Of a DNA stretch of 64,000 nucleotides, positions 14,044 to 55,183 are shown piece by piece. The stretch covers positions 2,229,001-2,293,000 of the forward strand of contig NZ_QUQO01000001.1 in assembly GCF_003399445.1 (NCBI RefSeq), given 5' to 3'. Every line of letters starts with the position of its first letter. Within the stretch, counting starts at the first letter, position 1. The translations under genes were made by a program, and so were the position numbers. The stretch is from Parvularcula marina. Lineage in GTDB: Bacteria; Pseudomonadota; Alphaproteobacteria; Caulobacterales; Parvularculaceae. The notes under the pieces are model-generated. The model saw only the letters and a program-made list of their open reading frames with translations, ran no database searches and had not been told where the DNA came from.

Positions 14044-15432
14044 ATGACTGCCAGAGTTCTTGTTGTTGACGATCTGATCCCGAATGTGCGGCTGCTAGAG
14101 GCCAAACTCCGGGCCGAATATTTCGAGGTCCTGACGGCCTTGTCCGGGCAGGAAGGGATCGACATTGCGCTCGAGAATTCGCCAGACATTATTCTCCTTG
14201 ATGTGATGATGCCGGGGCTCGACGGGTTTGAAACCTGCGAGCGGCTGAAAGCCGACCCCCGGACCTGCCATATCCCCGTTGTGATGGTGACCGCGCTTGA
14301 CCAACAGGCGGACCGGATTGCCGGGCTGAAAGCCGGGGCGGACGATTTCCTGACGAAACCTGTCCAGGATCTTGCCCTGTTCGCGCGTGTCAGGAGTCTC
14401 ACACGTCTGAAACAGATGACGGATGAATTGCGACATCGCCACGCCAAAGGCGCGGAGCTGGGTGCGATCATGCCGCCCGATCTCGATAATCAGGCCTATC
14501 GCACCTCGGAAATCCTGGTCATCTCAGAAGATCTGATCATTGATGGGCTGAGCGACGATGTCGATGGCCTGCCCGAAGGTGTCACATTCAATTTTGAGAA
14601 CGATCCACGCAAGGCGATTGAGCATATCCGCTCTAGTGCGCCGGACATGCTGATCGTCGATTTGGGGCTGAAAGAATATGACCCCTTGCGGCTTTGCTCC
14701 GCGATCCGGTCATTTGAAGAATCACGGCTGACGCCTCTTCTGGCGCTCGCCCATGAATCTGAGATGCGCAAACTCGTCCGGGCACTGGATATCGGGGTCA
14801 ATGACTATCTGATGCGCCCCATCGACAGCCAGGAAATGGTCGCGCGCGTTCGCACCCAGCTGCGCCGTCAGTGGTATGTTGAGGATCTGCGCCAGTCCGT
14901 GCAGCAGAGCCTTGAGCTTGCCGTCACCGATGCGCTGACCGGGCTTTATAATCGCCGCTATCTGGGGTCCCAGCTGCCGCGCCAGTTCGGCCTTTCAAAA
15001 GAGCGCAATCTGCCGTTCTCGCTGATCATTCTCGATGTCGATCACTTCAAGGTGGTCAATGACACACACGGCCATGATGTTGGCGACGAAGTGCTGGTTG
15101 AAATTTCCGATCGGCTGAAGCGCTGCGTCCGGGGGATGGATATTGCTTGCCGTTATGGCGGTGAAGAATTTGTCTGTGTCCTGCCGGAAACCGATCAAGA
15201 AGGTGCGCGGGTGATCGCTGAGCGCGTCCGGGAAGATATTGCCAACCGCCCCATGTCTCTGTCGAGTGGGCAGGAACTAGACGTGACGGTCAGTATCGGT
15301 CTTGCCACGCATGAGCCGCAAGATGCGGAGGATACCCCGCCGCGACTGCTCAAGCGGGCTGACGAAGCGCTTTATGCGGCGAAAACCGGCGGCAGGAACC
15401 GTGTCGTGCCGCAGACGGAACTTGCAGCGTAA
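14044..15432 (+). CDS. pleD: PleD-type response regulator diguanylate cyclase
   Basis: Makes cyclic di-GMP at the cell pole during the swarmer-to-stalked transition in Caulobacter; the same role is inferred here. Domain order: receiver with phosphoacceptor Asp53 (LLDVMMPGLDG), a degenerate adaptor receiver (about 155-275) lacking the full acidic pocket, then GGDEF. The active site is GGEEF at 372-376. An intact inhibitory I-site, RGMD at 363-366, predicts product feedback. Length 462. Only 59 bases separate it from divK, consistent with one operon. Confidence 0.95.
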   Translation: MTARVLVVDDLIPNVRLLEAKLRAEYFEVLTALSGQEGIDIALENSPDIILLDVMMPGLDGFETCERLKADPRTCHIPVVMVTALDQQADRIAGLKAGADDFLTKPVQDLALFARVRSLTRLKQMTDELRHRHAKGAELGAIMPPDLDNQAYRTSEILVISEDLIIDGLSDDVDGLPEGVTFNFENDPRKAIEHIRSSAPDMLIVDLGLKEYDPLRLCSAIRSFEESRLTPLLALAHESEMRKLVRALDIGVNDYLMRPIDSQEMVARVRTQLRRQWYVEDLRQSVQQSLELAVTDALTGLYNRRYLGSQLPRQFGLSKERNLPFSLIILDVDHFKVVNDTHGHDVGDEVLVEISDRLKRCVRGMDIACRYGGEEFVCVLPETDQEGARVIAERVREDIANRPMSLSSGQELDVTVSIGLATHEPQDAEDTPPRLLKRADEALYAAKTGGRNRVVPQTELAA

Positions 15433-51733: not shown

Positions 51734-52095
51734 GCCCGTTCCGGGAGGGATATCTCTACCGGCTGTGCTGTCCGGCACAGTGGGACGGGTTACGCAAATG
51801 CGAACATGTTCCGTATAGCCCGGATGATGCGCATGACGGCTTCTTTCACATGTCGACCCCGGTGCAGGTGCTGGAGACGGCGGCAAAGCATTATGCCATG
51901 CATCCAAAGCTTGTCGCCATCGGATGCCCCGACAGCGCCCCCGGTGAGCTTCTCAAATGGGAGCCTTCACGCGGCGGGGCGCTCTTTCCGCATGTTTACG
52001 GCGATGTCCTGACCGAATGGTTTGACCACCTCGTCCCCCTGATCAAACAGGCTGATGGCTACGTGCCGGTTCCGGGAGCAGAAGAAAATATATGA
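51730..52095 (+). CDS. DUF952 family protein
   Basis: 121-residue protein with the DUF952 pattern: [14 protein letters not shown], a Ser-Pro-D loop, [16 protein letters not shown], and [12 protein letters not shown]. The fold resembles ADP-ribosyltransferase-like or RNA-phosphotransferase-like proteins, but its activity is unknown. Overlaps the rimBK stop by four bases and the pyrD start by four bases, so it is co-translated between them. In many alphaproteobacteria a DUF952 gene precedes pyrD, which supports the call. Confidence 0.85.
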
Positions 52096-53126
52096 GCATC
52101 TGGCGGCTCGGCACGCGTGCCTTTCATGCCTTTGATCCCGAAACGGCTCACAATCTGACGATCCGCGCCTTGAAGGCGGGGGTTGGCCCCCAGCGCAAGG
52201 GGGATCTGTTCCCGGCGCTTGAGACCAAGGTTGCGGGCCTCACCTTCCCCAATCCGCTGGGGCTGGCGGCCGGTTTCGACAAAAATGCCGCGGTGCCGGA
52301 TGCCTGCCTGAATATGGGGTTCGGCTTTGTCGAGGTCGGCGCCGTCACGCCGCGGCCGCAGGCCGGCAATGACAAACCGCGGGTCTTCCGTCTCTCTCGC
52401 GATCAGGCGGTGATCAACCGCTATGGTTTTAACAATGACGGGCTCGAAGCCATTGCCGCGCGGCTGTCTGCCCGTTCGGGCCGGGGGATTGTCGGGATTA
52501 ATCTGGGGGCGAACAAGGATTCGACCGACCGTGTCGGCGATTATGTGACCTGCGCCGCGCGGCTCGCGCCGCTTGTCTCTTTCTGTACAGTGAATGTTTC
52601 CTCCCCCAATACGCCGGGCCTGCGCGCGCTTCAGGAAAAAGATGTCCTGATGTCGCTTCTCAAGAATGTCCGTATGGCGATGACGGGGAATGCCAAGCTC
52701 TTCCTCAAGATTGCGCCGGATCTCGGCGATGAGGATCGTGCCGACCTTGTCGAACTGGCCAAGGCCGCGCCGATTGATGCGCTGGTGATCTCCAACACGA
52801 CCATTGGCGAACGGGACCGGCTGGCTCATGATCCCGACCAAAAAGGCGGGCTCTCTGGCCGTCCGCTTTTCCCGCTCTCAACCGCGCGGCTGAAGGAATT
52901 CGCAGGCGCCCTTAGCGGAGCCGTCCCGCTGATCGGAGTGGGCGGGATTTCCGGTGCGCAGGACGCTTATGAGAAAATCCTCGGCGGCGCCTCGCTCGTC
53001 CAGCTCTATACCGCGCTCGTCTATAAGGGCCCGGATCTCGTCATCGATATCCTAGAGGGCCTGTCTGAACGTTTGTCAGCGGACGGTTTTCAGGACGTCG
53101 CGGATGCGGTTGGCAAGGGGCTCTAA
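52092..53126 (+). CDS. pyrD: Dihydroorotate dehydrogenase (quinone), class 2
   Basis: Membrane-associated FMN enzyme oxidising dihydroorotate to orotate with quinone. Features: the N-terminal helical membrane-contact segment, NPLGLAAGFDKNA, TPRPQAGNDKPR, the catalytic Ser in FCTVNVSSPNTPGL, KIAPDL, ISNTTI, and IGVGGISGAQDAYEKI. Length 344. A decayed copy of its last 120 or so bases lies at 54352-54476, 1.2 kb downstream beyond the serine hydrolase gene. Confidence 0.97.
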   Translation: MSIWRLGTRAFHAFDPETAHNLTIRALKAGVGPQRKGDLFPALETKVAGLTFPNPLGLAAGFDKNAAVPDACLNMGFGFVEVGAVTPRPQAGNDKPRVFRLSRDQAVINRYGFNNDGLEAIAARLSARSGRGIVGINLGANKDSTDRVGDYVTCAARLAPLVSFCTVNVSSPNTPGLRALQEKDVLMSLLKNVRMAMTGNAKLFLKIAPDLGDEDRADLVELAKAAPIDALVISNTTIGERDRLAHDPDQKGGLSGRPLFPLSTARLKEFAGALSGAVPLIGVGGISGAQDAYEKILGGASLVQLYTALVYKGPDLVIDILEGLSERLSADGFQDVADAVGKGL

Positions 53127-53151
53127 GGCCTGCCTGCTGACTGTTAGATGG

Positions 53152-53168
53152 TTATCGACTTTCGATAA
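53152..53168. promoter_or_regulatory. Perfect palindrome TTATCGA-CTT-TCGATAA upstream of serine hydrolase gene
   Basis: Perfect 7-bp inverted repeat with a 3-nt centre, 25 bases after the pyrD stop. Likely operator or recombination-related site; regulator not identifiable. A second palindrome begins three bases later. Confidence 0.5.
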
Positions 53169-53170
53169 GA

Positions 53171-53185
53171 TCATGCTAAGCATGA
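53171..53185. promoter_or_regulatory. Perfect palindrome TCATGCT-A-AGCATGA upstream of serine hydrolase gene
   Basis: Perfect 7-bp inverted repeat with a one-base centre, next to the previous palindrome and 25 bases before the hydrolase ATG. It overlaps the expected promoter or leader of that gene. Confidence 0.5.
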
Positions 53186-53209
53186 CCCCCTGAGGGAAAG
53201 GGACTCGTC

Positions 53210-54307
53210 ATGCTTCATCTTCTGATCGCCTCACTCGCTGTGTTCATGGCCAGCCCGCCGGAAGTGGCCGAGATCAGCCCTCCCAAAGAGATCATTGCCG
53301 AACGGATCAGCGGCCTGCTGGAAGAGCGCCCTGACCTGAAGGGCGTCTCCGTCACCGTCCGGCAGGAGGACCGGACAATGGCGATCAGCAAGGGGCAGGC
53401 CGCGCCTGACGGCACGCAGCTGACGGCCGAAACGCCCATTCGGATTGCAAGCGTTGCCAAGACCTTCACGGCGGCAACGGTGCTGCGGCTTTACGAACAG
53501 GGTATGGTTGATCTCGACACGCCGATCCGTGAGCTGATCGATGATCGTTATGACACCCTCCTGAGTGGAGACGGATATGACACTTCCATCATCACGGTGA
53601 GGCATTTGCTGATGCATGTCTCCGGCATGCCGGATGCTGCGGATCGCGCATATATCGATCTGGTTCTCGCTGATACATCGCAGCAATGGACACGAGATGA
53701 ACAGCTGCAACTGCTTGTCGACAATCACGATCCGATTGGTCCGCCGAATACTGAGTTTCGCTATTCGGATACCGGATATGTCCTTCTCGGCCATATTATC
53801 GAGCGCCTGACCGGTGATGCGTTGGGAATTGCAGTTCGGCGTGAGCTTAAATTCGATGAGATTGGCCTGACCTCAACATGGTGGGAGCAGACAGAGATGC
53901 CCCCTGCAACGGCCCTTCCTCGGGGGCACCAATATCTGGGTGAGCAGGATACGCATGACTGGAACGGCTCGATGGATCTTTATGGCGGCGGCGGGCTCAT
54001 CTCGACGACCACGGATCTTTCCCGATTCATGCAGGTGTTATTCAACGGCGAGATTTATGATGACCCAGAGACGCTCGAACTCATGACGACGGCGCCCGGT
54101 CATCCGTTTCCGGATAACTATCGGATCGGTCTTTTCCCGCGCGACATCAATGGCGTGCAGGCCTATTCCCATGGCGGGTTCTGGGGGGTTGAGATCATGG
54201 CCTCGCCGGCGATAGATTTTTATGCAGCAGGTGTGTCGATGGAGCAGTCCGGTTATCGCGCCATGGTCGCAATCCTTCGGGATGCTCTGGGCGCGATGGC
54301 GGAATAA
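53210..54307 (+). CDS. Serine hydrolase of the class C beta-lactamase/penicillin-binding family
   Basis: 365-residue secreted or periplasmic protein with a short signal-like N-terminus (to about residue 14). SVAK (Ser81, Lys84) is the catalytic tetrad. The second motif reads YSD (Tyr185) instead of the usual Tyr-x-Asn, and SHGGFWG near the end may serve as the third motif. This pattern suits esterase or peptidase members of the Beta-lactamase Pfam family better than true AmpC. GAGGGAAAGGG precedes the ATG. It is bracketed by intact pyrD and a decayed pyrD end, implying later acquisition or duplication. Confidence 0.85.
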   Translation: MLHLLIASLAVFMASPPEVAEISPPKEIIAERISGLLEERPDLKGVSVTVRQEDRTMAISKGQAAPDGTQLTAETPIRIASVAKTFTAATVLRLYEQGMVDLDTPIRELIDDRYDTLLSGDGYDTSIITVRHLLMHVSGMPDAADRAYIDLVLADTSQQWTRDEQLQLLVDNHDPIGPPNTEFRYSDTGYVLLGHIIERLTGDALGIAVRRELKFDEIGLTSTWWEQTEMPPATALPRGHQYLGEQDTHDWNGSMDLYGGGGLISTTTDLSRFMQVLFNGEIYDDPETLELMTTAPGHPFPDNYRIGLFPRDINGVQAYSHGGFWGVEIMASPAIDFYAAGVSMEQSGYRAMVAILRDALGAMAE

Positions 54308-54351
54308 TTGAGTCTTATCGTTGGTGCTGCTCAGGCGACACGCTTGCCCGA

Positions 54352-54476
54352 CTCTATACTGCACTCGCTTATATAAGGGCCGGGACCTCGTGGTCGATAT
54401 CCTTGAAGCTTGTCAGAACATTTATCAGTGGACGGTCTTCAGGAGGTCGTAGGGCGCGGTTGGCAAGAGGCTGTGA
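54352..54476 (+). pseudogene. Degenerate duplicate of the pyrD 3' end
   Basis: Aligns by eye, end to end, with 53004-53126 of pyrD at roughly three-quarters identity with a few small indels. Both begin CTCTATAC; both keep TATAAGGGC, TCGATATCC, TCAGAAC/CTGAAC-like, GACGGT.TTCAGGA and GCGGTTGGCAAG, and both end at a stop codon. Translated in shifting frames it gives YKG-DLVVDILE and then LSEHLSVDGLQEVVG, matching PyrD's YKGPDLVIDILEGLSERLSADGFQDV. It is frameshifted and has no start, so it is a remnant. Confidence 0.85.
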
Positions 54477-54502
54477 AAAAAGTTTGATGAACGACAAATC
54501 AT

Positions 54503-54997
54503 TCAGCTGATTTTTTCCAGCCTTTCCCAAAAATCGATCGGGGGAACACTTTCGATCATTCCTGCGACCATTTCCACAAATCCGGCATTGAAATAGTTTT
54601 TGCACAACTCCCAAAGTTCGCGGCCACGCTCTGTACCAAGAACAAAATAAATTACGCCGCGATAGCTCTCCCAGGTTTCCTTGTCCAGCGCGCCGTTTCT
54701 ATATTGTAGCCATTCGTGCTCGCGTGCGCGCATCTGCCCGATCATCCAGAAAATCAGCTTGGTCTTCTCTTCTTTTGTAGGTGTTTCCGGCTGGGAAAAG
54801 ATGCGTCCGAGTTCCGGAAATTCCAGGTACTTATAGACACCTGTCTGATCATTGGTCAGCTGAGCTTGTCGAGATTCCGAGCGCAGCTGTTGTGCCCCCT
54901 GCCTTACTTGAATCGTCAAATAGATGAGAGTGACAGCGACCACGACGACCCCGATGATCTGGGCCAGATAGGCGATATCTTCGAGGGTCAGGGTCAT
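54503..54997 (-). CDS. Membrane-anchored protein of unknown function
   Basis: 164 residues with one N-terminal membrane helix (about 10-30, IIGVVVVAVTLIYLTIQV). A charged helical cytoplasmic part rich in Glu, Arg and Trp follows. The pattern (one helix, then QVRQGAQQLR) resembles a scattered family of small accessory-region proteins, but no function is known. The coding region is visibly lower in GC than its neighbours, and it lies just beyond the pyrD scar. Both suggest horizontal origin. The ATG at 54997 follows CGGAG. Confidence 0.6.
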   Translation of the reverse strand: MTLTLEDIAYLAQIIGVVVVAVTLIYLTIQVRQGAQQLRSESRQAQLTNDQTGVYKYLEFPELGRIFSQPETPTKEEKTKLIFWMIGQMRAREHEWLQYRNGALDKETWESYRGVIYFVLGTERGRELWELCKNYFNAGFVEMVAGMIESVPPIDFWERLEKIS

Positions 54998-55183
54998 AAC
55001 GCTAATGCTCCGGCAGGTCTGGCCATAGTAGTTCTTACTCGTCTTGCAATTTGAGTAATTGGTGGACCAGATCACAATTCATTCTGACCGGCTAGATGAC
55101 GGCGTATGGCTCCGATTGAAGCCCCCCCTTCATCGGCGCGCGCCGGGGTGCTAGTGGGCGCACCGCGAGACGCATTTTGAGGA

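Follow-up and report, generated by a model that had tools for sequence, protein, structure and literature searches.

A decayed duplicate of the pyrD 3′ end behind a serine hydrolase gene in Parvularcula marina

Displaced or duplicated gene ends have been described in Escherichia coli and Vibrio cholerae. The element e14 displaces 163 bp of the end of icd in E. coli and supplies the gene with a new end, as set out in PMC6379469. A study on V. cholerae (PMC5361080) reports displaced 3′ ends at the T6SS and Rhs loci and tentatively attributes them to homology-facilitated illegitimate recombination. In E. coli, single crossovers of circular molecules duplicated the end of lacZ over 109 to 950 bp, with 14 clones sequenced, according to PMC3240628, which also describes one-sided illegitimate recombination as very rare in E. 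coli and doubts it as the explanation of such variation there.

We analyzed a stretch of 64,000 nucleotides of Parvularcula marina (positions 2229001 to 2293000 of contig C1, hereafter the window; all coordinates below are counted from its first letter) from a genome of 3.4 Mb that is 99.5% complete. The window holds an intact pyrD gene (52092-53126, plus strand), which encodes a class 2 (quinone) dihydroorotate dehydrogenase of 344 aa (NF003645, E = 3.4e-137, and TIGR01036, above cut-offs). It is followed by a spacer (53127-53209), in which no sigma-70-like promoter match was found, and by an intact gene of 365 aa (53210-54307, plus strand) that encodes a serine hydrolase of the beta-lactamase/esterase family PF00144 (E = 5.6e-44). 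A joint of 26 bp (54308-54333) leads from the hydrolase stop codon to a decayed second pyrD 3′ end of 143 bp (54334-54476, plus strand), which runs from codon 299 to a TGA stop and carries three frameshifting indels. Behind this remnant lie a 190-aa open reading frame (ORF) on the minus strand (54503-55075), with a low GC content (49.9%) and no Pfam or NCBIfam match, and an amidohydrolase gene (PF07969; 55184-56842, plus strand). ARAGORN found no tRNA in the window.

This arrangement resembles each of the three described systems in part. Like icd with e14 (PMC6379469), pyrD is a housekeeping gene that keeps a complete 3′ end while a displaced end lies beyond the insert (163 bp for e14 and 143 bp for pyrD), so the gene end stands on both sides of the insert and the intact gene is complete. 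Unlike e14, which is a 15-kb prophage, the pyrD insert consists of one gene, with no tyrosine integrase (PF00589) found, no att core shown and no recurrence seen. As at the T6SS and Rhs loci of V. cholerae (PMC5361080), a new 3′ part and a downstream gene are inserted and the older 3′ end is pushed downstream, but those loci are arrays with variable ends, whereas pyrD is a conserved housekeeping gene with a single event. The lacZ duplications (PMC3240628) share with pyrD the duplicated gene ends, 109 to 950 bp long in lacZ, that accompany inserted DNA; they were fresh laboratory events, however, whereas the spare copy of pyrD has decayed to 80% identity.

The repeated part comprises the last 47 codons of pyrD including the stop (52986-53126, 141 bases), which recur at 54334-54476. 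When the alignment was extended through both stop codons, 112 of the 140 ungapped sites were identical, with three indels, and blastn within the window aligned 52986-53122 with 54334-54472 over 140 columns at 78.6% identity (E = 3e-26). A simple alignment of the pyrD end against 54301-54520 scored 77, compared with a mean of 11.7 (standard deviation, 1.9; maximum, 24) for 1000 dinucleotide shuffles. An earlier sequence-only reading had paired 53004-53126 with 54352-54476 and had named alignment against shuffled sequence as a check; the match passes this check, although its start had been placed 18 bp too late. The same reading correctly described frameshifts, a stop codon at the end of both copies (TAA at 53124-53126 in the intact copy; TGA in the remnant, the last open stretch of which reads ...GAVGKRL* and ends at 54476), and one complete hydrolase gene between them. 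A search of the whole 3.4-Mb genome with pyrD DNA (E ≤ 0.001; 40 of the 50 first-look candidates scored) returned only these two matches and no third copy of the pyrD end. On the right side, the homology between the two ends stops at the stop codon, and no convincing similarity was found behind the two stops, between the spacer and the DNA after the remnant. The first 12 bases of the duplicated ends, in which an identical crossover core was sought, differ at three sites; decay of the remnant would erase any such core.

The second copy is the decayed one, as the sequence-only reading had claimed. When the remnant is read whole, two frames contain an internal stop, and the pyrD register is lost in the third. 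Mismatches between the copies number 6, 9, and 13 at codon positions 1, 2, and 3, respectively (of 47 each). Across 22 family genomes, the intact letter recurs 235 times and the remnant letter 38 times at the 15 sites that mismatch in positions 1 and 2, the stop-codon site contributing no votes, and the remnant is therefore the copy that changed. The 13 third-position mismatches yielded 117 votes for the intact letter and 48 for the remnant letter from the same 22 genomes. There are exceptions: at 53080 the remnant, and not the intact copy, has the letter of G004, G006, and G007 (three of the nine genus relatives described below, G001 to G009), and at 53036 and 53043 the remnant's letter is the commoner one among the 22 family genomes, so that some of the differences are not due to decay of the remnant.

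The mismatch counts also bear on the origin of the second end. Under a simple Jukes-Cantor profile with neutral change on the remnant and equal silent change on the intact copy, the best estimate of earlier silent divergence between the copies was 0, with a 95% upper bound of 0.28 (a crude model on 47 codons); the silent-site counts thus lack the sign of an other-species donor. The counts fit the decay of one copy with no prior silent divergence, and the lack of such divergence suits a purely local duplication equally well. The genus-mate species are unlikely donors, the closest one found being 32% different at the protein level. The sequence-only reading had suggested testing whether the last 120 bases of the intact gene differ in phylogeny from the rest. 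When this was examined as identities at 109 loci, G007 (L004/L033) led for the body of pyrD (0.66), where G004 (L005) came ninth (0.63); for the last 46 residues, G004 led (0.78) and G007 came second (0.74). This comparison, in which 46 residues carry little power, revealed no clear foreign signal at the end of the intact gene.

We compared the surroundings of pyrD in nine relatives from the genus. The amidohydrolase gene directly follows pyrD in five of them (G001, G002, G003, G005, and G009), with the ends of the two matches 23 to 135 bp apart. In G004, one 211-aa gene with no Pfam match (L133) lies between pyrD and the amidohydrolase gene, and in G006, G007, and G008 there was no amidohydrolase match in the approximately 10 kb read downstream of pyrD. 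The gene after pyrD is a sensor kinase gene in G006 (L134) and a glucosamine-phosphate-isomerase-family gene in G008 (L135). Upstream of pyrD, TerB-like and RimK-like genes are found together in seven of the nine; G001 has RimK alone and G007 has neither, in both cases on a contig that begins there. DUF952 matches occur upstream of pyrD in four of the nine. The hydrolase had no match behind pyrD in any of the nine, and the gene order in the window is unlike that of most of the genus. Because pyrD adjoins the amidohydrolase gene in five of the nine, the hydrolase gene is most simply read as an insert, that is, a newcomer, and the pyrD-amidohydrolase order is likely the ancestral, uninserted one, with the amidohydrolase gene of the window as the right flank of the probable ancestral site. 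The differing genes in G004, G006, and G008 indicate turnover behind pyrD within the genus. The sequence-only reading had proposed to look for different passengers at this site in related genomes; different genes are indeed found after pyrD in some of them, but no pyrD remnants were seen beside the variable genes of these three. No strain of the same species or of a sister species was found, the nearest pyrD being 68% identical.

The hydrolase has a hydrophobic N-terminus and SVAK (81), YSD (185), and HGG (321) motifs. It reached no NCBIfam cut-off (12 families listed, all below), and we therefore call it a serine hydrolase and not a beta-lactamase. Its distribution is patchy as judged from homology searches: homologs at E ≤ 1e-60 were found in 10 of 62 family genomes, and the threshold of 1e-90 was passed in 7 of 200 sampled genomes of the order, its own genome being included in both counts. 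The best match among the 62 family genomes (56%) is from another genus, while the three genus-mates that passed E = 1e-60 show 45 to 47%. In the four other genomes in which the place of pyrD is known (G001, G005, G009, and G023), the homolog and pyrD are on different contigs, and no pyrD was found near the homologs in nine stretches of 2.4 to 10 kb each. At none of these nine loci did the two flanks of the homolog, taken up to 1500 bp long, share a same-strand repeat (E ≤ 1e-3); one locus had no downstream DNA and another only 827 bp. On plasmids, 330 records match the hydrolase, all below 60% identity. The GC3 of the hydrolase gene, 0.65, lies at the low edge of the range of 12 other genes in the window (0.60 to 0.79); as the DUF952 gene has an equal GC3, this is weak evidence.

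Homologs of the 190-aa ORF with 62 to 69% identity occur in 4 of the 61 other family genomes, and a further 21 have weaker ones; the ORFs of the close homologs suggest that the gene may really start at Met27. It may be another patchily distributed gene at this locus. No match to it was found in the pyrD loci read, nor was pyrD found beside its four close homologs in their stretches of 2.4 to 3.5 kb; the homolog in G009 lies on a contig other than that of pyrD.

The sequence-only reading had further seen in this locus the signature of an unrecognized integration or recombination hot spot. We looked for a second pyrD end on the same strand at 125 other pyrD loci from at most 103 genomes, at least 22 of the loci being second looks at genomes already included. 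A match with E ≤ 0.01 was obtained at 30 loci, only one of them below 1e-6, and none of the 125 had a pyrD-end remnant with a passenger. The DNA available downstream ranged from none to 12.6 kb, with at least 1350 bp at 120 loci, less than that at 5, and at least 4 kb at 86, so larger elements could escape. The one strong match is in G034 (L030, C18), which belongs to the same order and another family. It was considered as a second independent integration and rejected as such, as it is a tandem duplication of approximately 180 bp comprising the pyrD end and the spacer (94% identity over 204 bp). The same gene end is thus repeated downstream in G034 as in the window, but the duplication in G034, located 70 bp behind the pyrD stop codon, has adjacent copies with homology running past the stop and no passenger, whereas the two ends in the window flank the hydrolase gene. 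Part of the L030 spacer resembles another stretch approximately 6 kb away in L152 (79% over 107 bp).

In none of the 10 genus genomes was a tyrosine integrase (PF00589) found closer than 100 kb to pyrD on its contig. The nearest match lies approximately 479 kb from pyrD in the genome of the window and 129 to 509 kb away in G004, G005, G006, G008, and G009. No match lies on the pyrD contigs of G001, G002, G003, and G007, and the test is weak in G001 and G007, where these contigs span just 7 and 15 kb, respectively. Among viral contigs, 58 stretches matched a pattern, and in none was a pyrD end confirmed. A further 17 phage and 117 plasmid records match pyrD, all below 60% identity, and the matches listed (15 phage and 30 plasmid) carry an annotation as dihydroorotate or dihydropyrimidine dehydrogenase or no annotation; none of these viral, phage, and plasmid sources yielded a close pyrD end. 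The titles and abstract openings of the open-access literature searched made no mention of pyrD as an attachment site, and an open-access search for displaced housekeeping gene ends gave no result. An exact match of 22 bases to the remnant in G004 is confined to those 22 bases and lies far from pyrD, and it was set aside as chance. With a single event, no PF00589 match found nearby, no remnant with a passenger at the 125 loci, and no confirmed viral pyrD end, the proposed hot spot at pyrD is unsupported, and the locus alone provides no evidence for a new mobile system or a new integration hot spot.

To place the repeat against a background, we collected direct repeats (same strand, 70 to 600 bp long, identity of 65% or more, separated by less than 8 kb) with a word size of 7, a word size of 11 missing the pair of the window. 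In 101 sources totaling 1.73 Mb, mostly pyrD neighborhoods and including the window, 19 pairs passed this filter, six of them with a copy at the 3′ end of an ORF. Four of these six fall inside a single L082 ORF, another connects two neighboring ORFs of L146 at their ends, and the last is that of the window, the only one of the six linking the end of an intact gene to a piece that is not a gene end. The G034 duplication is among the 13 unflagged pairs because its homology passes the stop codon and the flag misses it. No second such case was recognized in 464 kb of the window's own genome (a 400-kb sample in 20 stretches plus the window, with repeats classed by ORF position), in which the other direct repeats fall in repetitive ORFs, across or beside neighboring ORFs, or in a stretch with no long ORF (L184). 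The latter is a 350-bp repeat on the same contig as the window (G000:C1), with 75% identity between 15060-15409 and 15489-15824 of L184 and mostly free of long ORFs. At 13723-19134 of L171 (also G000:C1), two adjacent ORFs of approximately 800 aa, both with internal repeats, are 85% identical in DNA across 2.5 kb.

We consider it about an even call that the hydrolase gene joined pyrD from behind in one recombination event involving a second pyrD 3′ end. Incoming DNA, probably from the same or a very close lineage, would have carried a pyrD end followed by the hydrolase gene and recombined with the resident pyrD, either through a single crossover of a circular molecule or with homologous recombination at one boundary and an illegitimate joint at the opposite one. 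The product would have been a pyrD with a complete end, the hydrolase gene, a spare pyrD end, and the old right flank, and the spare end, useless afterwards, would have decayed by drift with frameshifts. With pyrD-hydrolase and pyrD-(190-aa gene)-amidohydrolase as hypothetical parents, the present order could arise through one joint, at 54308-54333. The anatomy allows one non-homologous joint, at this place, and the point of a homologous crossover is invisible. The sequence-only reading had also proposed incoming DNA with its own pyrD end and a passenger; the insert order deduced from five of the nine relatives, the decayed end, and the homology stopping at the gene end agree with this part of it. 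Several observations count against a single recombination event: it leaves the 190-aa ORF, another extra gene, unexplained, one-sided illegitimate recombination is experimentally rare, the letters at 53080, 53036, and 53043 indicate that decay of the remnant does not account for all differences, and a mobile or viral source with a close pyrD end was not found. The absence of earlier silent divergence fits equally with a strong rival, a local duplication plus an insertion, which gives the same anatomy. Here the last 47 codons of pyrD would have been duplicated in place by a replication or repair error and the hydrolase gene inserted between the copies, either during that repair, at a staggered break with filler DNA, or afterwards. 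We hold this to be a possible, though somewhat doubtful, course; an old tandem duplication was also the alternative that the sequence-only reading had offered. The G034 case demonstrates that a pure tandem duplication of the pyrD end exists, and the codon-position counts need no outside donor, but a simple tandem duplication is expected to leave homology across the whole unit including the spacer, as in G034, whereas in the window it stops at the stop codon. By the anatomy, if the hydrolase gene had been within the duplicated unit, its second copy must have been deleted from just past the stop codon, and if it had been outside, the insertion must have struck the boundary of the duplication, unless both arose together.

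Site-specific integration, in which an element that attached at the pyrD 3′ end supplied the new end and later shrank to the hydrolase gene while the displaced host end decayed, shares its anatomy with e14 in icd and agrees with the homology ending at the stop codon and with the varying genes downstream of pyrD in the genus. The element e14 carries its own integrase; the lack of PF00589 within 100 kb of pyrD in the 10 genus genomes (on short contigs in G001 and G007), of a remnant with a passenger at the 125 loci, and of a confirmed viral or close phage or plasmid pyrD end makes this course unlikely. That a small integrative unit uses the pyrD 3′ end for attachment in Parvularcula, with its integrase since lost and the hydrolase gene as its last cargo, appears very improbable. 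Recombination in the reverse direction would give an identical product: a strain with pyrD-hydrolase would have received DNA with the 190-aa gene and the amidohydrolase gene behind a truncated pyrD end, and with the remnant as the newcomer the intact pyrD would never have been touched. It would accommodate the 190-aa ORF, which is also extra, with its 49.9% GC and its few close homologs in the family, and nothing specific speaks against it, but it requires an earlier, separate arrival of the hydrolase gene at the pyrD site, and we rate it as a slim prospect. A single recombination event that brought the hydrolase gene in with a pyrD end is the reading we favor.

The pyrD scar is real, seemingly rare in what was scanned, and of a known kind. 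Taken alone, it gives no indication of a new mobile system; it is a clean recombination scar, showing the addition of a single gene behind a housekeeping gene without breaking the housekeeping gene.
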